A stretch of 47,569 bases of DNA from a virus. Positions 29,592 to 45,790 of this stretch are shown piece by piece; the stretch's first letter is position 1; each line of letters starts with the position of its first letter. Below the pieces are notes generated by a model. It did no database searches. It had not been told where the DNA came from and worked only from the letters and a program-made list of their open reading frames with translations. A program made the translations under genes and the position numbers. The stretch spans positions 1 through 47,569 of the IMG/VR virus record IMGVR_UViG_3300010413_000056; one strand, written 5' to 3'.

Positions 29592-30805
29592 ATATAAGTG
29601 AGATTGAAAGAACTTTTGTGGGGGGGATTATCCTTGATCCAGACAAATTAGTCCATGTTAATATAAAAGCGGAAGATTTTGCCCTCGATAATACACGAAA
29701 GGCTTTTGTTGAAATAAGAAAACTTTGGGAAGAGAAACAACCTGTAGATTTATACGAATTATCAAAGTCAGGCCTTGATGTAAAATGGTTGTCTGGACTC
29801 ACAGACATAGGAAGTCCGGCAAGGGTGAAATATTTATCTCGAGAGATTTCAACCGAGGCCAAAAAGCGGAGGATACTCACAAAATTAAAAAAGATTGAAA
29901 AAGATTCTGAATATTATGATGCAAAAACGATGTTATCTGACATATTGGATTTATATAATGCTGAAAATAAAGACGATATAAAAGATTCATCTATACAGGC
30001 CGTTGTTAAGAGATATGAAGAATTTCAAAAAGAAAATCGTCGTCGTGGGAATATAGGAATTGATACTGGATTCGATTTTTTTAGGAAGAAGTATATTTAC
30101 TATGTCCCCGGTCATGTTTGGGCTATTGGCGGTTATACGAGTGTTGGCAAGTCAGCAAGCATGATTGAGATGATTGAAAGACTTCCTGACAGTGCAAAGT
30201 CTTGTGTAATTTCTACAGAGATGACACGAGAACAAATAGTTGCGAGGATACTATCAAGAAAAACAGGATTTGAAACCTATGTATTGCTTTCTGGTGGACT
30301 CCATGACCAACGCCTTGAGGATGAAGACAGGGCAAAGAAGGATCTTCTATCTAAAAAATTGGATGTTTTTGAAGATGTTTATTTTCTTGACGATATTGTT
30401 TCTATGCTTAGGATGAAACATCTACAGGGTGGATTAAATGTGGCATGGGTAGATTATATTCAAAACTGCAAGGTCAAGGGTGCCAAGAATGAATATCAAG
30501 CAATGGGGATGATTGCTAAAACAATGCAACAGACAGCAAAAGAACTTCGCTGTACTATTATTCTTTTCAGCCAGGTTGGGAATGCAGCCGCAAAAGAAGA
30601 TAGCGGATTGCTTGAATTTAAAGGTGCTGGAGATATAGCCGCTGTAGCTGATCTCGGTATATGGTTAACAAGAAGTCCTGATAATAAAGAAAATTTATTG
30701 TGGGACTTTAGAAAAAACAGGCATGGGCGTACAGGATCGCAAGTGCTTCGCTTCACAGATGGGTGGACACGACTTCAAGAAATTGACTCGGTAAAAAACA
30801 AATGA
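29585..30805 (+). CDS. dnaB: DnaB-like replicative helicase
   Basis: The 406-residue protein has a DnaB N-terminal domain (EIERTFVGGIILDPDKLV) and a RecA-type ATPase: Walker A GGYTSVGKS near 180-190, IRMT-type helix STEMTREQIVARILSRKTG, Walker B VAWVDYIQ near 285, and a QVGNAAAKEDSGLLEFKGAG segment with a late NRHGRTG arginine-finger region. It is shorter than bacterial DnaB (about 470). With the upstream loader it makes a minimal replication module; host polymerase is needed. Confidence 0.85.
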   Translation: MVNISEIERTFVGGIILDPDKLVHVNIKAEDFALDNTRKAFVEIRKLWEEKQPVDLYELSKSGLDVKWLSGLTDIGSPARVKYLSREISTEAKKRRILTKLKKIEKDSEYYDAKTMLSDILDLYNAENKDDIKDSSIQAVVKRYEEFQKENRRRGNIGIDTGFDFFRKKYIYYVPGHVWAIGGYTSVGKSASMIEMIERLPDSAKSCVISTEMTREQIVARILSRKTGFETYVLLSGGLHDQRLEDEDRAKKDLLSKKLDVFEDVYFLDDIVSMLRMKHLQGGLNVAWVDYIQNCKVKGAKNEYQAMGMIAKTMQQTAKELRCTIILFSQVGNAAAKEDSGLLEFKGAGDIAAVADLGIWLTRSPDNKENLLWDFRKNRHGRTGSQVLRFTDGWTRLQEIDSVKNK

Positions 30806-31341
30806 ACGAATTTAATTTAAAAATTAGAGAAAGATTTTGTGATAAACTGGTTAATTCTTTTGGGGAAATAGAGTGTACCATAGAAGAAGCAGAGAAGTTT
30901 ATTTGTGCATGTATTAAATCATATTCTGGTTGGTTTTATTCGATGTCAGAAGACTTTACTCTGTTATCTTTTGTTATTAGAAGATCTAAGGGTAAAATAA
31001 AAGAAAAAGCAGACAGCAAGGCAGAGATAATATTTTGCAATATCTTATATAAAAACAATATAAAGTTTGAGTTTCAGAAGAAAATTGGTCCATATAAAGT
31101 TGATTATTTATTTGATAATAATATAATTTTAGAATGTGATGGTCCGCATCATACCCACCCTGTTCAGGTACAGCATGATAAAATGCGTGATTCATATATA
31201 GAGAAAAAAGGATATAAAATATTAAGATGTGATTGGGATATGGTCGCAGCAATGACAGATGATGTTATAGAATTGTTGCAGAATTATATTTCAAACAATT
31301 ACACTAGCATATCAGAACACAACGACACAGAAAACCAATAA
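30802..31341 (+). CDS. Vsr/DUF559-like endonuclease
   Basis: The 179-residue protein has a C-terminal very-short-patch-repair-like nuclease domain: SKAEIIFCNILYKNNIKFEF, then KKIGPYKVDYLFDNNIILEC with catalytic D, ECDGPHHTHPVQVQHDKMRD and GYKILRCDWD. The N-terminal 75 residues are helical and unrecognised. It overlaps the helicase gene by 4 bases and so may process DNA nicks or branches in replication. Confidence 0.75.
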   Translation: MNEFNLKIRERFCDKLVNSFGEIECTIEEAEKFICACIKSYSGWFYSMSEDFTLLSFVIRRSKGKIKEKADSKAEIIFCNILYKNNIKFEFQKKIGPYKVDYLFDNNIILECDGPHHTHPVQVQHDKMRDSYIEKKGYKILRCDWDMVAAMTDDVIELLQNYISNNYTSISEHNDTENQ

Positions 31342-31350
31342 GGGGTAATA

Positions 31351-31626
31351 ATGTACGAACCAACAAGCAAAGAACGCACCTGCACTAAGCATGGTAAAAA
31401 GTATAACGTGGGTTATTTCTGTCCACATTGCGCGCCTAATATCGGTTGTTATACCGACAAGGAATACGAAGCACAACGCAATTCTTGCATCCCTGATGCT
31501 ATATTACGAGCTAATGAACGCATAAAGAAAGGCCGGAATGCAAAAGGAAAGTTTTGTGGCAAGCAGGAATTTAGTAAAGTATTTTTAGAAGAAATGGACA
31601 GGATTGTTAAAGAGAGAGGGATTTAA
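31351..31626 (+). CDS. Hypothetical zinc-binding protein, cassette-associated
   Basis: The 91-residue protein starts after AAGGGG. It has a Cys-rich N-terminus (CTKHGKKYNVGYFCPHCAPN, then CYTD) that resembles a zinc ribbon and a basic helical C-terminus. Its stop codon TAA lies inside the ATTTAAC R'' box of the first attC-like site, as is usual for integron cassette genes. No boundary is visible on its left side. Confidence 0.6.
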   Translation: MYEPTSKERTCTKHGKKYNVGYFCPHCAPNIGCYTDKEYEAQRNSCIPDAILRANERIKKGRNAKGKFCGKQEFSKVFLEEMDRIVKERGI

Positions 31627-31703
31627 CGCAGAATTAACTTGCGAGCCAAGGCGATAATTGAGGCCCGCATATACTCCGAGTCAGGTTGAAGGTTTTGTTA
31701 GCG
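31621..31703 (+). other. attC-like integron site 1
   Basis: R'' box ATTTAAC (31621-31627) and R'-like box GTTAGCG (31697-31703) enclose an imperfect palindrome. After a 6-nt spacer the left arm TTAACTTG pairs with CAGGTTGAA in the right arm, leaving one extra base (seen as C after TT on the complement) unpaired, with one G-U. R' deviates from GTTRRRY at its last bases, so this is the weakest of the three full sites. Confidence 0.6.
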
Positions 31704-31729
31704 AAAAATTTTACAATTTGGAGGCCGCA

Positions 31730-31792
31730 ATGCACAAAGTGGGCGAAAGAGTTGGCGCGAAGGAGCCGCAGATGAGGCGGCATAACGGTTGA
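31730..31792 (+). CDS. Mini-ORF of a 165-bp cassette
   Basis: A 20-residue frame starts at ATG 31730 after TTGGAGGCCGC, a good ribosome site, and stops within attC-like site 2. The peptide is basic (MHKVGERVGAKEPQMRRHNG). Very short cassettes of this kind exist in integrons. Translation is unproven. Confidence 0.35.
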   Translation: MHKVGERVGAKEPQMRRHNG

Positions 31793-31868
31793 GTTGTGGC
31801 GTCCGCGCCACTGACCTTGCAGAAAAACCGGGCGGCTAAACGCGGTCGCCACGAATGATTGGTTAAAC
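31780..31868 (+). other. attC-like integron site 2
   Basis: R'' box GCATAAC (31780-31786) and R' box GTTAAAC (31862-31868, fits GTTRRRY). After 6-7 spacer bases the arm TTGTGGCG pairs with CGCCACGAA leaving one extra base after TT, and continues as CCGCG/CGCGG past a single mismatch. The left end reads like the aadA-type attC start (GCxTAACGxTTGAGTT). Orientation has R' to the right, toward the next gene. Confidence 0.75.
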
Positions 31869-31890
31869 CGCGTGAAAATAGGAGGTATTT

Positions 31891-32499
31891 ATGGATCTAC
31901 AATGTAGTGAAGCACGGTTCTTGAATGATATCGCAGAGCATAAGATGGAGATCGTCCGTGATGATGGGCTTTACCGCCATGTCAGATTTCGGTGCAATGG
32001 TTCCTATTGCATGGGGTTCGACCTTGTGACCTGGCCAGGATTTCTTTGCTTCTGTGGTGATATGGGCGAGTTTGTTTTCAGCCGGGCGGCGGATATGTTC
32101 AGCTTCTTCCGGGGAAGCGGCCACCGCAACAATAAGCACCCTACCCTGGCCGTGAATTTTGGATACTGGGCTGAAAAGTGCAAAGCGGTTGATAAGTCGG
32201 ATGGCATTAGAAAATATGACCCTGGTAAATTCCGAGAAGTGATTACCGAAATCTTGAACGACGACGAAGACGTCACCGATGAACTGCGCCAGGTTGTTGA
32301 AGATGAAGTCCTTTGGGCTGCCGACGATGGGCCACATGCTGCCCATGCTGCCGCCAATGACTTTGAATGGAATGGCAAGATGTATTTCCAGGATTTCTGG
32401 GAACACAGCCTTGAGGTATACACCTATCGTTTCCTCTGGTGCTGCTACGCTATGGCCTGGGGGATTGCAGAATACGACAAGGGAAAGTCAGCGGTTTAA
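31891..32499 (+). CDS. Conserved phage/prophage protein of unknown function in a cassette
   Basis: The 202-residue protein starts after AGGAGG. It contains CMGFDLVTWPGFLCFCGDMG, FSRAADMFSFFRG, VEDEVLWAADDGPHAA and FWEHSLEVYTYRFLWCCYAM, a pattern I associate with a widespread prophage family of unknown role. The gene is clearly more GC-rich than its surroundings. It lies between attC-like sites 2 and 3, and its stop TAA is inside the R'' box of site 3, so it has the form of an integron cassette of about 713 bp. Confidence 0.75.
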   Translation: MDLQCSEARFLNDIAEHKMEIVRDDGLYRHVRFRCNGSYCMGFDLVTWPGFLCFCGDMGEFVFSRAADMFSFFRGSGHRNNKHPTLAVNFGYWAEKCKAVDKSDGIRKYDPGKFREVITEILNDDEDVTDELRQVVEDEVLWAADDGPHAAHAAANDFEWNGKMYFQDFWEHSLEVYTYRFLWCCYAMAWGIAEYDKGKSAV

Positions 32500-32581
32500 C
32501 GTCGTTTTTGAGCCGCTGGCCAAAGACGAAACAATAAAAACGCCGATATTCTTCCAGTCGGCTCGAAAAACCTGGTTAGGT
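32494..32581 (+). other. attC-like integron site 3 (best match)
   Basis: R'' box GTTTAAC (32494-32500) and R' box GTTAGGT (32575-32581) both fit consensus. After a 6-nt spacer the left arm TTTGAGCCG pairs with CGGCTCGAAA in the right arm, with one extra base unpaired after TTT, then a second unpaired base, then CTGG/CCAG. R box, unpaired spacer, L box with extrahelical base and variable loop are all present over 88 bp. Confidence 0.85.
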
Positions 32582-32587
32582 GAGTAA

Positions 32588-32863
32588 ATGGCTGAATTGA
32601 TTGTAACACCAGAAGAGGAAGCGGCCGCATCATATATTGATTGGTCTGATGAATCATTGGGAAAGATGGTTAAGATGATTGGCCTTTTGATGAATGACGA
32701 ATACGGCAAAGATGCCGCCTGGGTTTCAATGGCTGCACATTTGCTTGTGGATTTTTCTCGGAAAACGAATAGCACCAATACCAGCGTCAAAGTTTCTGGG
32801 TGTACCAAGAATGATGAACCAATTGGTGACTGGGAAATTCGGATTCGTAAAATATCCACCTAA
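32588..32863 (+). CDS. Hypothetical protein, last cassette gene
   Basis: The 91-residue protein starts 7 bases after the R' box of site 3. It contains EEEAAASYIDWSDESLGKMV and a C-terminal strand region. Its stop TAA is inside ACCTAAC (32858-32864), which fits an R'' box, but no matching R' follows. It may be the terminal cassette with a decayed attC. Family not recognised. Confidence 0.6.
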   Translation: MAELIVTPEEEAAASYIDWSDESLGKMVKMIGLLMNDEYGKDAAWVSMAAHLLVDFSRKTNSTNTSVKVSGCTKNDEPIGDWEIRIRKIST

Positions 32864-32891
32864 CTATATTATTATCTCGCAGCAAAGAGGA
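32858..32891 (+). other. Possible attC remnant (R'' box only) and small imperfect hairpin
   Basis: ACCTAAC is followed by TATTATTATCTC, which pairs imperfectly with GAGGATAATATTA (one mismatch, one bulge) just upstream of the next start. No GTTRRRY box is seen. It may be a decayed cassette end or an unrelated hairpin. Confidence 0.3.
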
Positions 32892-32898
32892 TAATATT

Positions 32899-33327
32899 AT
32901 GCCAAAAGTGATAACTATTAAGTCACCGGACGGAATAGAATATACCATAAAAGAACTTGCTGACAAGTTTGGTATATCGCCAAAGACTATCCGGGCCCGG
33001 TATAACAGGGGATGTTCCTGGAAAGAGTTTATAGAACCTTACAAGCCGTCGACGTTTCTTATTAAAGACCCAAACGGCCAAGAATGGACTATGGACGAAA
33101 TAGCCAAGGAATACGGTTTAGTTGCTCGTACTGTACGTCGGCGGATAAAAGACGGCTGGAAATGGGACCAGATAATATCACCGGCAAATAACGTGCGAAG
33201 TGAGGCGGCTAAAAAAAGATATAAACCGTTTGCCAACTTAAAGTCAGATCCATACATGACACCGCAGGAACACTGGCAAGCTGAATTATTAGCAAGAGTG
33301 GAAATGGTAAAGGATGGGAGAATATGA
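32899..33327 (+). CDS. Protein with two tandem HTH repeats
   Basis: The 142-residue protein contains two copies of one module: IKSPDGIEYTIKELADKFG with SPKTIRARYNRGCSWKEFI, and IKDPNGQEWTMDEIAKEYG with ARTVRRRIKDGWKWDQII. Each is a short DNA-binding helix-turn-helix ending in G(C/W)xW. It probably binds DNA with two half sites; role unknown. It overlaps the next gene by 4 bases. Confidence 0.65.
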   Translation: MPKVITIKSPDGIEYTIKELADKFGISPKTIRARYNRGCSWKEFIEPYKPSTFLIKDPNGQEWTMDEIAKEYGLVARTVRRRIKDGWKWDQIISPANNVRSEAAKKRYKPFANLKSDPYMTPQEHWQAELLARVEMVKDGRI

Positions 33328-40135: not shown

Positions 40136-40277
40136 TGAAAAGGAACTTGAAACCACAATTAACGAACTTGGCAATAACGGATATGAACTTGATTTTATCT
40201 ATCACGATAAGTTTATCTTTAAAAAAATAGATGATACTGGAAGACAGTACAAAAAAAGAACTTCTAAAGAAAGCTAA
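40101..40277 (+). CDS. DUF4177-like small protein
   Basis: Start set at ATG 40101 with GGAGGGATC just upstream (58 residues). VRVIHRHRDEKELETTINEL followed by GNNGYELDFIYHD fits the DUF4177 pattern. It overlaps both terminase genes. Function is unknown. Confidence 0.6.
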   Translation: MYKVRVIHRHRDEKELETTINELGNNGYELDFIYHDKFIFKKIDDTGRQYKKRTSKES

Positions 40278-41844
40278 ACTATTCTTCCTGGAGATGAACG
40301 CTATCCAGCAGCGTTTCATCCATGTAAAGAACAAGTCCGGATATACACCTAGACGTAGACTGAACGAATGCGGCAACAAGGGTGGCAAAACTCATGGCGG
40401 AATTGCAGAAGATTTAGCACATGCCTGGGGTTGTAGAATATGGTTGCCTGAAGATCATCCCGATTACAAGATCCAGATTAAAGTACCGAATAGAGGGTTA
40501 ATAGGTTGTGAAACAATGGCTCATTCGGTAATGGAAAAAATCTGGCCTACCTTAGAAGAACTCATTCCTCTTACCTGTTCGTATAAAACTAAAAAAAATC
40601 CACAAGGACAGATTCAGAAACTAACCTTTGAAACTGATCCATTCGGGCAGAAATGCACGTCCGAGATTTACCTACGGTCTTACGACCAGGAACCGGCGAC
40701 TTTTGAAGGTATTGATGCAGATTGGATACATTGGGACGAACCGCCGCCTAAGAAAATCATAGAAGCGGCAGAACGTGGCAAGATAGTCTCAAACGCACCG
40801 TCCTGGTTCACAATGACTCCTTTGAAGGAAGCGTATATATATGACGAGTATTCTTTAAAAGCCGCCAACATGGGCGGTGATGACGAAGAAATTGCCGTAG
40901 TACGGGGCGAGATTTGGGAAAACTGCATAGATTACTGTTTCTACTGTGATTTAGATATTCCTGAAAACAGAATTAAAGACGAAGAATTCAATCTTATACG
41001 ACCCGTAAAGAACTGTCCGCAATGTGATCGGGTTTTAGGCTTTATAGAAAAAGCAGGAATTGACGACTATCTGAAGACTTTAGATCCTGAAACACGAGAA
41101 TCGCGTGAAAAAGGACTCTGGAAACACCTTAGTGGTCTTATCTATAAGGATTTAGACCGCGATATTCATTTATACGACGACATTCCTATCCCGAAACACT
41201 GGATGATGATAGAAGGGATGGACCCGCACGATGCACGACCTTCTAAGTATCTGTTTGCAGCCGTTTCACCTGAAGAGATAGATATTTTTAAAAAGACACG
41301 TAATCGAATTTATGTATTTGATTACTTACTTTTAGACGGTGATATGGATAGTATCGTTCGTAAGATTAAGATGAAACGGGCTGAATACGGTTATTCAAAA
41401 CCTAAATGGATAGTACTCGATTCTAAATACGGTACTCGTACTGAAATGGAAGGTAAATCCTGGGAAGACGAACTCAGGCTCAGGGGTATTGGACATATAA
41501 GACTATCTAAATCAAGACCCGGTGACGTTGAATTAGGCCATAAATTGGTGAGAGAATATTTAAAACTACATCATTCTACTCTAACCGATAGAACCAAACC
41601 AGGTATTTTACTGGCAAAAGAGAAGTGTAAAGGTGCCGGTGGTCCGATAAATCAACTCTTCAACTATCAGTATTCAGATAAACACGACAAACCGAAAGAA
41701 GAATATAAGGACTTTCCTGATGTTTTAAGATATATGGTTCTTGAAGAACCTATATATATGAATCCTATACTTCAAAAAGAACGCGAAAAGAAGATTTACG
41801 AAATACGCGATCATGCATACAGGCTGAGAAGACATGCCATCTAA
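40231..41844 (+). CDS. terL: Terminase large subunit
   Basis: The 537-residue packaging motor has a Walker A-like GNKGGKT (48-54), a Walker B with catalytic acid in WIHWDEPPP (about 165-172), and a C-terminal nuclease domain whose acidic residues include DPHDARP and VLDSKYG. Between them is a CIDYCFYC ... CPQC set (about 232-265) that could bind zinc and is not a standard part of terminases. ATG 40231 overlaps the DUF4177-like gene; ATG 40293 is an alternative start. Confidence 0.85.
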   Translation: MILEDSTKKELLKKAKLFFLEMNAIQQRFIHVKNKSGYTPRRRLNECGNKGGKTHGGIAEDLAHAWGCRIWLPEDHPDYKIQIKVPNRGLIGCETMAHSVMEKIWPTLEELIPLTCSYKTKKNPQGQIQKLTFETDPFGQKCTSEIYLRSYDQEPATFEGIDADWIHWDEPPPKKIIEAAERGKIVSNAPSWFTMTPLKEAYIYDEYSLKAANMGGDDEEIAVVRGEIWENCIDYCFYCDLDIPENRIKDEEFNLIRPVKNCPQCDRVLGFIEKAGIDDYLKTLDPETRESREKGLWKHLSGLIYKDLDRDIHLYDDIPIPKHWMMIEGMDPHDARPSKYLFAAVSPEEIDIFKKTRNRIYVFDYLLLDGDMDSIVRKIKMKRAEYGYSKPKWIVLDSKYGTRTEMEGKSWEDELRLRGIGHIRLSKSRPGDVELGHKLVREYLKLHHSTLTDRTKPGILLAKEKCKGAGGPINQLFNYQYSDKHDKPKEEYKDFPDVLRYMVLEEPIYMNPILQKEREKKIYEIRDHAYRLRRHAI

Positions 41845-43498
41845 AGAAGAATATAAAAAGTTGGAAACACTTCTGCAACTCTTTATGAGAGCGGAAGATT
41901 ATTGCAGACCTTACTTCGACAGAGCGAAAAGAAACTACAGACTCTACAGGTCCGGGACTGCGGTTGATGAAAAAGATTGGCCGTATGTAAACAGAGTAAG
42001 AACTAAAGATATTCTCGCTTTTGTTGAAGATACGACTGCTTTACTTATTTCGACTCTTTTTGCGACTACTCCGTTTTTTTCGGTAATTCCGAGAGAGACT
42101 AAAGTTCAGTATATTTTACAGACAGGTATCGACACGATCAAGGTAGCCGAACAGATGGAAAAATGTTTAGACTACCAGATTTCACATGAAGATACAGAAT
42201 TCTTTGAAGAGATTACTGATTTCTTTAAAGGTGGTACTATTTTTGGTAATTCATATATAGGCGTTTATCCTAAATTCACCGAGGAAGGATTCTATTTAAG
42301 ACCGAAACTCGATACAGTTGACTTCTGGAATTTACTTCCTGTACCGGGTGCCAGAAGAATGTCCAGGGCCAGAGGTGTTTTTGTTAGAGAACTTACCGAT
42401 ATAGTTACTTTAGGTGAGTTAGCTAAAAAAGGAATCTACCAAAATGTAGATAAGATTAAAACTCTACAATCAATGGACCCTGAAACTGACTGGCATGCTG
42501 CATTACTTCAAGAAATTGGTATGGAAGAATGGTTGCCGGAACGCGATCAGGTTGAAGTTTTACATTACTTCTCTAACGGACATTTAATCTCGATTGCCGA
42601 TAGACGGGTTTTCTTGAGAGATTCTACTTCTAAAGGAAAACCATTTCCTTACGATCTTCCACAAGTGCAGTATAAATATATGCCCGTTCCGCTTGAATTC
42701 TTTGCAATGGGTATTCCCGAAGTTTTAGAAGTACTACAAGAAGACAAGAACCTTATCAGGTCGGCACGTAGGGATAACATTGACCTGGTAATCAATAAAA
42801 TCATAAAGGCCCGTGAAGGTGCCGATATAAATTACGATCTTTTAAAGTTCTATGCAGGCGCAATATGGCCGTTAGAAAACCTTAACGATATTGACGTTCT
42901 TGACATTCCTGACGTTACCCAAAGTTCCTATGCAGAAGAACAGGGTTTACAAAGGGATATGGAAAATGCTTTAAGTCTGTTTGGTTATGCACGCGGTCAG
43001 ACTCCGGCGCATTCAGAACAACCCACTACGGTAATGAAGATTCAACAGGCATCTTTAAACAGACTCGACCTTGCCGTCAAAATGGCTGAATTCACAACTC
43101 TTCAGAATATAGCTGCACGTATTATCATGTTGAACAGAGCTTATATGACGCAAGAGAATTACGAAGCAATTATAGGCGAACCCGATGCCGGATTCTATCA
43201 AATGACTGTAGAAGACGTGAAAAAATTCTTCACAATCAAACCAGTAGGAAGTTCGATTTCCAATATTAAAGAAGTACGACAGAAACAAATCGAAACCATG
43301 ATAGGCATGTTAAGTCAATTCCCACCTGAAGTCACGCAAGGTAATGTAACACCATTTGCAGTCGATTGGTACGAAACTTTAATGACCGGCCTCGATTCTA
43401 TAGATATAAAGAATAAAGACCGTGTTTTAATAAAACTTCAACAGGAGGAACAGCCTATGGATATGGACTTAGGTAACGTGCCTTACGGTGCCGCATGA
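41834..43498 (+). CDS. Portal protein
   Basis: The 554-residue protein follows the large terminase with an 11-base overlap, the usual place for the portal. It has an N-terminal AEDYCRPYFDRAKRNYRLYR segment, GNSYIGVYPKF in the body, an EEQGLQRDMENALSLFGYAR helix and a QPTTVMKIQQAS motif, as in podovirus portals. It forms the dodecameric channel for DNA. Confidence 0.8.
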   Translation: MPSKEEYKKLETLLQLFMRAEDYCRPYFDRAKRNYRLYRSGTAVDEKDWPYVNRVRTKDILAFVEDTTALLISTLFATTPFFSVIPRETKVQYILQTGIDTIKVAEQMEKCLDYQISHEDTEFFEEITDFFKGGTIFGNSYIGVYPKFTEEGFYLRPKLDTVDFWNLLPVPGARRMSRARGVFVRELTDIVTLGELAKKGIYQNVDKIKTLQSMDPETDWHAALLQEIGMEEWLPERDQVEVLHYFSNGHLISIADRRVFLRDSTSKGKPFPYDLPQVQYKYMPVPLEFFAMGIPEVLEVLQEDKNLIRSARRDNIDLVINKIIKAREGADINYDLLKFYAGAIWPLENLNDIDVLDIPDVTQSSYAEEQGLQRDMENALSLFGYARGQTPAHSEQPTTVMKIQQASLNRLDLAVKMAEFTTLQNIAARIIMLNRAYMTQENYEAIIGEPDAGFYQMTVEDVKKFFTIKPVGSSISNIKEVRQKQIETMIGMLSQFPPEVTQGNVTPFAVDWYETLMTGLDSIDIKNKDRVLIKLQQEEQPMDMDLGNVPYGAA

Positions 43499-43833
43499 AA
43501 GCATCTGATTTTAAACGACAGATTCTTGAAGAAGGGAATAACTCGTCAATTCGTAAACAGATTCAATCTAAACTGGAACACCGGGATACAAAGGGAGAGA
43601 TTTTAGAAATCGGCAAAGCACTTGAAAATTTAGTTAAGCAAACAGGATGGTCTTACATAGAAGCATATATGTTCAGGATGATGAATCTAACCGGCCTTTT
43701 AATGGGGCAGACAGATGAACGTCAGCAAGGGGTTGCCGCAGGTTATGTGCAACTTATGCAATATGTAGATCAGATGATTAAAGCAAAGAATGCAATCCTA
43801 ATGGAACATTCGGAGGACGACGATGGATCATGA
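43495..43833 (+). CDS. Hypothetical small head-assembly protein
   Basis: The 112-residue helical protein overlaps both portal and scaffold genes. A segment YIEAYMFRMMNLTGLLMGQT and acidic C-terminus (HSEDDDGS) are visible. It may be a head-assembly accessory; no family recognised. Confidence 0.5.
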   Translation: MKASDFKRQILEEGNNSSIRKQIQSKLEHRDTKGEILEIGKALENLVKQTGWSYIEAYMFRMMNLTGLLMGQTDERQQGVAAGYVQLMQYVDQMIKAKNAILMEHSEDDDGS

Positions 43834-44590
43834 CCCTAACGTGGAAATCCCTGAAGTGGATTTAACCAACGTAAACTTGGAAACAGAGACTAAACCGGAA
43901 AAGAACGACCTTGGCCCTTATAAAACACCTGAAGATTTAGCTAAAGGTTATAAAGAGATTCAAGGTTATGCGACTAAAGTCTCTCAAGAGAAGAAAGAAC
44001 TTGAGAAACAACTAGAAGCAATGCGTAACGAATTCGCATCTTTAAAGGAACAGATGGAATTTCGACAGGAACCGGTACAACCACAAATGCCAAACGATCC
44101 TGATTTTGAAACAAGGTTGCTGGAGAATCCAAACGAAACCATTGCACAGTTAGTCTCGCAACAGGTGGCAACACAACGTATTGCCGAAACATTAGAAGAA
44201 ATTCAGGAAACCGATCCTGAAACATTCAACGACCGCTATAGTTATGTGTCGATGTTAGCACAGAATCCGCAATATCAGCCTTATCTGAAAACAGCTAAAG
44301 GCGTGAAAAGATTATTTAAAATTGCGGATGAACAATTAGAAAATCGACTCAAGAACCAGGCAATGAAATCAATCACAACACTATTCGGTGAAAATGCCGA
44401 TTTAGATAAACTTAAACAACTTATTGCTTCCGATAAAAAAGACCCAGGCGCATACATGCCTGACCTCGGTACAGGTGGGCCGCCACGAGATGTAAAACCG
44501 GATCATGGTAAGAAAATTAAGGAGGCTGTTGACCGTGGTGATCCTGAAGCTGTACTTGGCGCTATTTTTGAAGAGGCTTTAAAGGAGTAA
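43823..44590 (+). CDS. Scaffolding-like protein
   Basis: The 255-residue acidic protein precedes the capsid gene by 3 bases. It has a coiled coil (KVSQEKKELEKQLEAMRNEF), an acidic N-terminus and a mostly helical body with a final PGAYMPDLGTGGPP. This is the layout and position of phage scaffolds that organise the procapsid. Confidence 0.7.
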   Translation: MDHDPNVEIPEVDLTNVNLETETKPEKNDLGPYKTPEDLAKGYKEIQGYATKVSQEKKELEKQLEAMRNEFASLKEQMEFRQEPVQPQMPNDPDFETRLLENPNETIAQLVSQQVATQRIAETLEEIQETDPETFNDRYSYVSMLAQNPQYQPYLKTAKGVKRLFKIADEQLENRLKNQAMKSITTLFGENADLDKLKQLIASDKKDPGAYMPDLGTGGPPRDVKPDHGKKIKEAVDRGDPEAVLGAIFEEALKE

Positions 44591-44593
44591 ATT

Positions 44594-45790
44594 ATGGCTC
44601 TTACAAGTACCGCCTTTATGGCGGCGCCAGGTGCATGGACTTCTACGCTTGCCAATAAACTTGACAAGATAGACTGTTCGCAAGTACTTGCTGCCGTTCT
44701 AAAGGGTGATAAACAACTCTTAGGTCACATCAAAATGGCTGGTGTGGCTAGAAACATTGAATATAACTGGATTGAAGACGATCTTAACGCGGCATTCGTA
44801 ATTGCATCTTCATCCGCTAACAACGTAATGACGGTAACATCACCGTCCGGAACTGCTTCACTTCAGAGGGTTTTGAGAAACAATGCGGTTATTAACCCGG
44901 CTGGCTCTGAAGTCTACATGAAGGTGGCCGCTGCGGTTACTAAACTCACTTTGACTGCTGCTGCATTCGGGTCTACAACCTGGGCATCGTGGACTGCAAC
45001 CAAGTGCTATGTAGTCGCACAACCGTATGCAGATATTGATTCTGCGAGTTCCGATATTTCAAAACTCAGAACCAAACGTAAAAACTTTACACAAGTCTTT
45101 GAACGTGCGGTACAGATTACCCAATCCCGTAAGGGTATGGATATGGAAGCAGTTACTTCCGAACTCCAGTTGCAGATTATGCGCCGAACGATGGAAATAA
45201 AGCGTGAACTCGATATGTCCGTACTCCGAGGATATGCAACTGCAACAGGATCTAATGTCTATTCGGCAGATACCGAACTTAGAACGATGGCAGGAATTAT
45301 TCAGCTAATCAGAGATCCTAACCTTGATTCTACCAGTGAAGATACAACGGTTATCAATAAGTCTTCTGCCGCACTTTCAATTGCAGGACTTAATTCACTC
45401 TGTTATCTCGTATGGGGTGAAGGTGGCCTGGATGAAATGGCAGATCCGATTTTCGTAGTCGGCGCTAAACAGCAGAGAGTTATAGCCGGTTTTGAATCTG
45501 AACTCAGACGAGTAGAACAGGGTGAACGTACAACTGGTTATTATCGTGATGTATTCCTGTCCGATATGGGTGTTGAAATTCCGGTTGTGCTTGATCGTTG
45601 GTGTCCTGAAGACAAGGTGATTCTCTTGGATCGTTCAAGGGTTGCACTCAAACCGCTTGCCGGTGATAACTGGCACATGGAAAAAATGGCTAAAACAGGC
45701 CGGAACGAAACATGGCAGATTTCCGGCCAATTCACAATAGAACTCAGGAATTCTAATGCCTGCCACGGACTCATCTATAACCTTGCCTAA
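44594..45790 (+). CDS. Major capsid protein (SU10/DUF5309-like)
   Basis: The 398-residue protein fits the SU10-type major capsid family: NFTQVFERAVQITQSRKGMD, MEIKRELDMSVLRGYATATG, IFVVGAKQQRVIAGF, and LPVI-like strands VEIPVVLDRWCPEDKVILL. The C-terminus (EKMAKTGRNETWQISGQFTI) is also typical. The Maf/MptE-like gene starts 35 bases before its stop, so the two are probably co-translated. Confidence 0.8.
   Translation: MALTSTAFMAAPGAWTSTLANKLDKIDCSQVLAAVLKGDKQLLGHIKMAGVARNIEYNWIEDDLNAAFVIASSSANNVMTVTSPSGTASLQRVLRNNAVINPAGSEVYMKVAAAVTKLTLTAAAFGSTTWASWTATKCYVVAQPYADIDSASSDISKLRTKRKNFTQVFERAVQITQSRKGMDMEAVTSELQLQIMRRTMEIKRELDMSVLRGYATATGSNVYSADTELRTMAGIIQLIRDPNLDSTSEDTTVINKSSAALSIAGLNSLCYLVWGEGGLDEMADPIFVVGAKQQRVIAGFESELRRVEQGERTTGYYRDVFLSDMGVEIPVVLDRWCPEDKVILLDRSRVALKPLAGDNWHMEKMAKTGRNETWQISGQFTIELRNSNACHGLIYNLA

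Follow-up and report, generated by a model that had tools for sequence, protein, structure and literature searches.

A putative integron-type cassette array in a phage early-gene operon, with genes running against their predicted attC sites

Phages exchange genes as modules, and to our knowledge site-specific machinery for module exchange in the phage early region is hardly known. The locus studied here raises the question of whether genes of such a region are carried as integron-type cassettes and, if so, how they lie relative to their attC sites. The window, meaning the whole stretch of DNA analysed, is a 47.6-kb phage contig from an IMG/VR record, and its genes include the following.

24792, Erf-like annealing protein
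25532, RecE-like exonuclease
29585, DnaB
31351 to 31626, plus strand, phage gene left of the array, 91 residues; its stop codon TAA forms the junction to site 1
40231 to 45790, terminase, portal and major head protein

The array is located between genes 31351 and 32899, within a run of plus-strand early genes, and GC skew in the window tracks gene strand. Behind DnaB, positions 30802-31341 hold a DUF559/MTES_1575 nuclease-like gene, possibly a homing-type endonuclease. The gene at 32899-33327 contains two helix-turn-helix units, like the DNA-binding part of HNH endonucleases, with the HNH domain absent, and its protein shows a weak match to Mad1.

Integron integrase genes (TIGR02249) were gathered from 229 genomes, from the class of a Rhodocyclaceae MAG, and the DNA adjoining 40 of these genes, each stretch oriented by its integrase, supplied the model sites. 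A strict one-base-bulge test returned the canonical polarity in 77 of 81 bacterial attC sites, and a position weight matrix (PWM) built on 72 bacterial attC sites from 24 loci gave the correct orientation for 72/72 in a leave-one-out test with the genome or locus withheld. A covariance model (CM) was derived from 28 of the bacterial attC sites together with known box and arm pairs; it contains no sequence of the window phage and was run with filters off. Over the whole window its first three ranks fall, at exact coordinates, on the three sites picked out by an earlier sequence-only reading, and its fourth-best match reaches 14.6 bits (E 0.2).

31621 to 31703, minus strand, attC site 1 (of cassette C); CM 22.7 bits, E 0.0019; PWM 19.1 for the reverse complement versus -3.6 forward
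31780 to 31868, minus strand, attC site 2 (of cassette B); CM 25.7 bits, E 3e-4; PWM 18.8 for the reverse complement versus -4.5 forward
32494 to 32581, minus strand, attC site 3 (of cassette A); CM 17.4 bits, E 0.039; PWM 9.5 for the reverse complement versus -1.7 forward

Sites 2 and 3, for which a covariance-model check had been proposed, thus pass it with an independently built model, site 3 on its own reaching an E-value of only 0.039. Dinucleotide shuffles of the window produced three same-strand sites inside 1.2 kb at matching thresholds in 0/200 cases. A home-made box-and-stem scanner also has sites 2 and 3 as its best matches; its loose form gives no polarity decision, and it was superseded by the strict bulge test, the PWM and the CM, with control locus L007 called canonical. 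An Rfam scan of the window gave no match. Single-strand folding, also proposed as a check, turned out negative for sites 1 and 2, whose predicted structures do not exceed those of shuffles in stability. The attC signal of the sites is carried by boxes, spacing, arms and bulge, not by bulk folding energy. We take all three to be genuine sites of the attC type.

The CM places all three sites on the minus strand and finds a plus-strand match for none of them, and the PWM favours minus over plus by 23, 23 and 11 bits for sites 1, 2 and 3. Read on the minus strand, site 1 carries R'' CGCTAAC and R' GTTAAAT, and site 3 carries R'' ACCTAAC and R' GTTAAAC. Site 2 runs R'' GTTTAAC CAATCA TT C GTGGCG ... 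CGCCAC AA CTCAACC, R' GTTATGC, with CAACTCAACC directly before the R' box. Its extra C follows TT on the R'' side, as in the attC of aadA1; in a plus-strand reading the extra unpaired base sits on the arm adjoining the right-hand box. An extra base after TT, described earlier, is therefore present, but it belongs to the minus strand, since the sites are attC on that strand. The accompanying claim that the left boxes are R'' and that the genes run with attC is contradicted by the extrahelical base, the PWM and the CM. A canonical cassette has its gene along the attC direction with the stop at R''; here the sites are on minus and the genes on plus, from which we read the genes of the array as inverted relative to their attC sites.

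Cassette limits were inferred from the G↓TTRRRY cleavage rule (the arrow marks the cut), applied on the minus strand.

31627 to 31785, minus strand, cassette C, 159 bp; boxes GTTAGCG/GCATAAC share 2 of the 4 variable positions
31730 to 31792, plus strand, candidate gene in cassette C, a 20-codon ORF translated as MHKVGERVGAKEPQMRRHNG
31786 to 32499, attC on minus and gene on plus, cassette B, 714 bp; boxes GTTAAAC/GTTTAAC match 7/7
31891 to 32499, plus strand, cassette gene B, 202 residues, phrog_4657 (E 2e-50, residues 6-199)
32500 to 32863, attC on minus and gene on plus, cassette A, 364 bp; boxes GTTAGGT/ACCTAAC match fully
32588 to 32863, plus strand, cassette gene A, 91 residues, starting 7 bases beyond site 3
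32858 to 32864, minus strand, bare core box reading GTTAGGT on minus and ACCTAAC on plus; it is precisely the right box of site 3 in reverse complement

These features agree with a CALIN array: three CM matches, where at least two attC by structure and sequence model are expected, no integron integrase on the phage contig, and one gene between sites with matching boxes (7/7 letters for cassettes A and B, in part for C). The idea of cassette units inside a phage genome is in this way supported. They do not make a complete integron with intI and attI; neither the TIGR02249 nor the Phage_integrase profile matches the phage contig, in line with the earlier remark that no integrase is visible, and no tyrosine recombinase was detected. 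The TAA stops reported to lie in boxes are indeed in ATTTAAC (gene 31351), in GTTTAAC, the left box of site 3 (gene 31891), and in ACCTAAC (gene 32588); the TGA just inside site 2 is the stop of the 20-codon ORF. That ORF, with a GGAGG ribosome site, is the only gene-like content of cassette C, whose boxes match poorly.

The array had been drawn to 32864; ACCTAAC at its end is a bare core box and not a fourth attC, with no CM match there. In attC order this box is the first array junction, and it contains the TAA of gene 32588. No attI-like conserved flank is seen beside it. To its right, at 32865-32897, there is an imperfect inverted repeat, ATATTATTATC ... GATAATATTAT, possibly a decayed attC or a terminator. 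At the other end of the array, gene 31351 has no box match upstream. Joined, the flanks read GGGATTTAA followed by CTATATT. The array appears to have entered directly behind the stop codon of gene 31351, at a predicted insertion point TAA↓C, and the empty-site junction is predicted as GGGATTTAA followed by CTATATTATTATC. Searches for relatives with the same flanks, using DnaB, gene 32588, gene 32899 and the MCP, returned distant relatives only, with a different early region, and yielded neither an empty site nor alternative cassettes; blastn of 30-38 kb against known phages returned none.

Cassette gene B matches phrog_4657 over most of its length. The family was found in 85 known phage records, and 110 or more stretches of bacterial genomes, the majority from Burkholderiales, carry it as well. 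This plus-strand match means that the cargo is a phage gene running against its attC. Pfam, NCBIfam, PADLOC and the PDB offered no lead to its function, and its structure model (pLDDT 88) matches no fold in the PDB with an E-value under 0.001; a family search with gene A returned no family. The gene had been described as GC-rich, which holds (GC 0.499, the mean over genes being 0.390, z 2.5; GC3 z 3.2), and a foreign origin of this cassette gene is supported; cassette B as a whole has a GC of 0.50 (z 2.6), and in the gene set the highest GC values are those of gene B and of cassettes B and C. Among 93 loci with other phrog_4657 genes, three distant phage relatives included, attC lies near the gene only in L002, where it adjoins an array and is not itself a cassette, with L045, a phage-like contig of a Rhodocyclaceae MAG with eight sites, nearby.

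L002 and L045 led to further attC arrays. IMG/VR was scanned with two proteobacterial-type attC end patterns, and the strand of attC was compared with that of the longest gene between neighbouring sites, so that the survey depends on these patterns and on a simple ORF rule. Integrase-bearing bacterial integrons gave 83 same-strand, 3 opposite and 27 uncalled intervals. Viral contigs with attC gave 33 same-strand, 54 opposite (54/87 called) and 43 uncalled (Fisher p 6e-18 per interval; p 3e-6 per contig, opposite versus same being 21 versus 15 viral contigs and 0 versus 21 bacterial ones). Some of these IMG/VR contigs may be bacterial rather than phage, and same-strand arrays are present among the viral contigs too, one of which (G255) carries a full integron integrase. 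An integron integrase is absent from every contig whose array is mainly inverted. Five inverted arrays besides that of the window lie on contigs with phage hallmarks.

G230, terminase and portal
G236, terminase, portal and head protein
G247, tail protein
G242, terminase
G246, DNA polymerase

Gene strand is fixed by homology in L133, L247, L270, L273, L045 and the window, and genes proven by homology to lie opposite attC in other phages include methyltransferases (phrog_954, 5e-70; phrog_67) and an RNA ligase (phrog_548, 2e-30). In the inverted arrays the boxes flanking one gene agree at all 4 variable positions in 61/74 cases and the two boxes of one site in 15/89, as expected if a gene and its two boxes form one cassette. 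Of the 98 boxes with TAA in these arrays, 53 supply the exact stop of an ORF of 40 codons or more, compared with 38/120 bacterial R'' boxes, 12/138 bacterial boxes read antisense and a background rate of 16 percent for YTAAC overall in this DNA. Together with the box matches, these counts show that the strand of a gene and its junction are tied to each other in these arrays, through design or selection. A bare box stands at the gene-downstream end of 10 of the 15 arrays scanned (10/11 with enough flank), one of them (L326) being a weak attC.

The survey also yielded some separate observations. At L149 (7060-7300) a single-stranded DNA-binding protein gene is apparently shortened at the start of an inverted array, as if the array had entered the gene. 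L287 and L309, from an isolate prophage record (IMG/VR 2834908352_000001), hold a complete integron integrase and an array of canonical layout; the prophage call has probably taken in a chromosomal integron. In a Rhodocyclaceae MAG, L098/L106 (G001:C87) has a frame-broken IntI-like or XerC-like recombinase, then an IS91-like transposase gene, beside canonical attC. That MAG (G001), considered as a source for its chromosomal integron integrase (C61) and the IS91-like pair (C87), showed no link to the phage contig.

Occurrence of attC in phages is already published by Qi et al. 2023 (PMC9892861). Five of the six phage sites tested there recombined with attI1 through IntI1; sites from two phages, PH101 among them, did so better through the bottom strand. 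The authors term the layout of TJE1 and PH101 typical. Re-read with our model, two of three published phage arrays are inverted: in Pseudoalteromonas phage H101 (PH101) the four attC lie on plus and the annotated genes there on minus (record 75919-77987; L341 25919-27987), and in MW202573 it is the attC that are on minus while the genes are on plus (L339 2069-3738). Tetrasphaera phage TJE1, with both on plus, is canonical. Gene inversion goes unmentioned in the available part of PMC9892861 and was not found elsewhere in the literature searched, mostly other than subscription papers; inversion of cassette genes relative to attC appears to be new.

We therefore consider it probable that the locus is a three-cassette integron-type array lacking an integrase, inserted in a phage early-gene operon with its genes inverted relative to attC. 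On the minus strand it would read as a normal array, the core box at 32858-32864 followed by cassettes A, B and C, each ended by its attC. On the plus strand it would be a row of genes, each starting just past a site and ending at the TAA of the next box. Because no recombinase was found in the phage, a host integron integrase would likely act on it in trans, a route already proposed in the sequence-only reading. Recombination of attC takes place on one folded strand of DNA, as a rule the bottom strand, and is more frequent when that strand serves as the lagging-strand template (PMC5371416). For the minus-strand attC of the window, the host integrase would fold the plus, coding strand as the recombining strand. 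Cutting there at RYYYAA↓C would set every crossover behind a stop codon, so that whole genes would enter or leave exactly behind the stop with their neighbours unbroken. Insertion that spares the upstream gene and keeps the cargo in the direction of the operon would be possible only with the gene inverted relative to attC. Integron integrases accept genomic attG cores (PMC12901181), so that a TAAC stop (GTTA on minus) could be an entry point, and the reverse step, in which an attC recombines with the TAAC that ends a phage gene downstream, would create a new inverted cassette. We infer in this way the direction of insertion, entry behind the TAA of gene 31351 and selection as the cause of the inversion.

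An unlikely alternative is a relic: an integron fragment from a bacterial chromosome came in through illegitimate recombination, is inert today, and later received phage genes between its dead attC. The missing integrase, the weak CM scores of sites 1 and 3 and the hairpins of sites 1 and 2, which fold no better than shuffles, would suit such a relic, and illegitimate recombination is what Qi et al. suggest (PMC9892861). With only 3/86 called bacterial cassettes inverted, however, a captured piece should carry canonical genes, and matched boxes with stops exactly in them across many phages misfit later random gene insertion. Much less probable still is the arrangement that the sequence-only reading had favoured, an ordinary plus-strand array of unusual attC with the extra base on the other arm. 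The genes do begin past right boxes and end in left ones like canonical cassettes, but arm and spacer consensus, beyond the bulge, favours minus by 11 to 23 bits, the CM lacks a plus-strand match, cassette A would be left without attC and gene 31351 without an upstream box, and the bare box recurs at the gene-downstream end of the arrays surveyed. Chance, or some different structured element that looks like attC (a terminator or a phage-specific hairpin, for example), might explain the weak folding energies and the lack of an Rfam match but is scarcely credible given the top three matches of an independent model, on one strand within 1 kb, and the shuffling result.

Beyond the inverted array itself, a joint reading, which we hold only tentatively, is that phages keep an integron cassette pool of their own, separate from the bacterial one and with genes inverted. 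The crossover would then always fall right behind a TAA stop (plus TAA↓C), with the coding strand as the recombining strand. An inverted gene would stay silent while its cassette sits in a host integron, and ordinary phage genes would become cassettes through recombination of an upstream attC with the TAAC at their own stop. The same reversed layout in many phages suggests such a phage-kept pool of exchangeable cassettes. If true, a phage with an inverted attC array could gain or lose genes as whole units through a host integrase while its operon stays intact, which would account for the phage collection of methyltransferases and other counter-defence genes. The origin of integron cassettes would become a testable question, for a single recombination would turn a phage gene flanked by an attC and its own TAAC stop into a cassette. 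Published phage arrays need re-reading for strand.

Compared with known systems, the window resembles the CALIN arrays described in phages (PMC9892861), with attC clusters in phage genomes and the integrase absent. With class 1 and chromosomal integron arrays it shares R''/R' boxes, L arms, the C bulge after TT, the spacing, one gene per attC and matching boxes at the cassette ends; in those arrays, however, the genes run along attC with an integrase gene near, whereas here they run against attC and the integrase is absent. Genomic attG sites, too, receive cassettes through the action of integron integrases (Loot 2024, as cited in PMC12901181). Insertion of this kind would explain how the array entered at a GTT core without an attI; attG sites are known from bacterial genomes, whereas the core in the window would be the TAAC stop of a phage gene.
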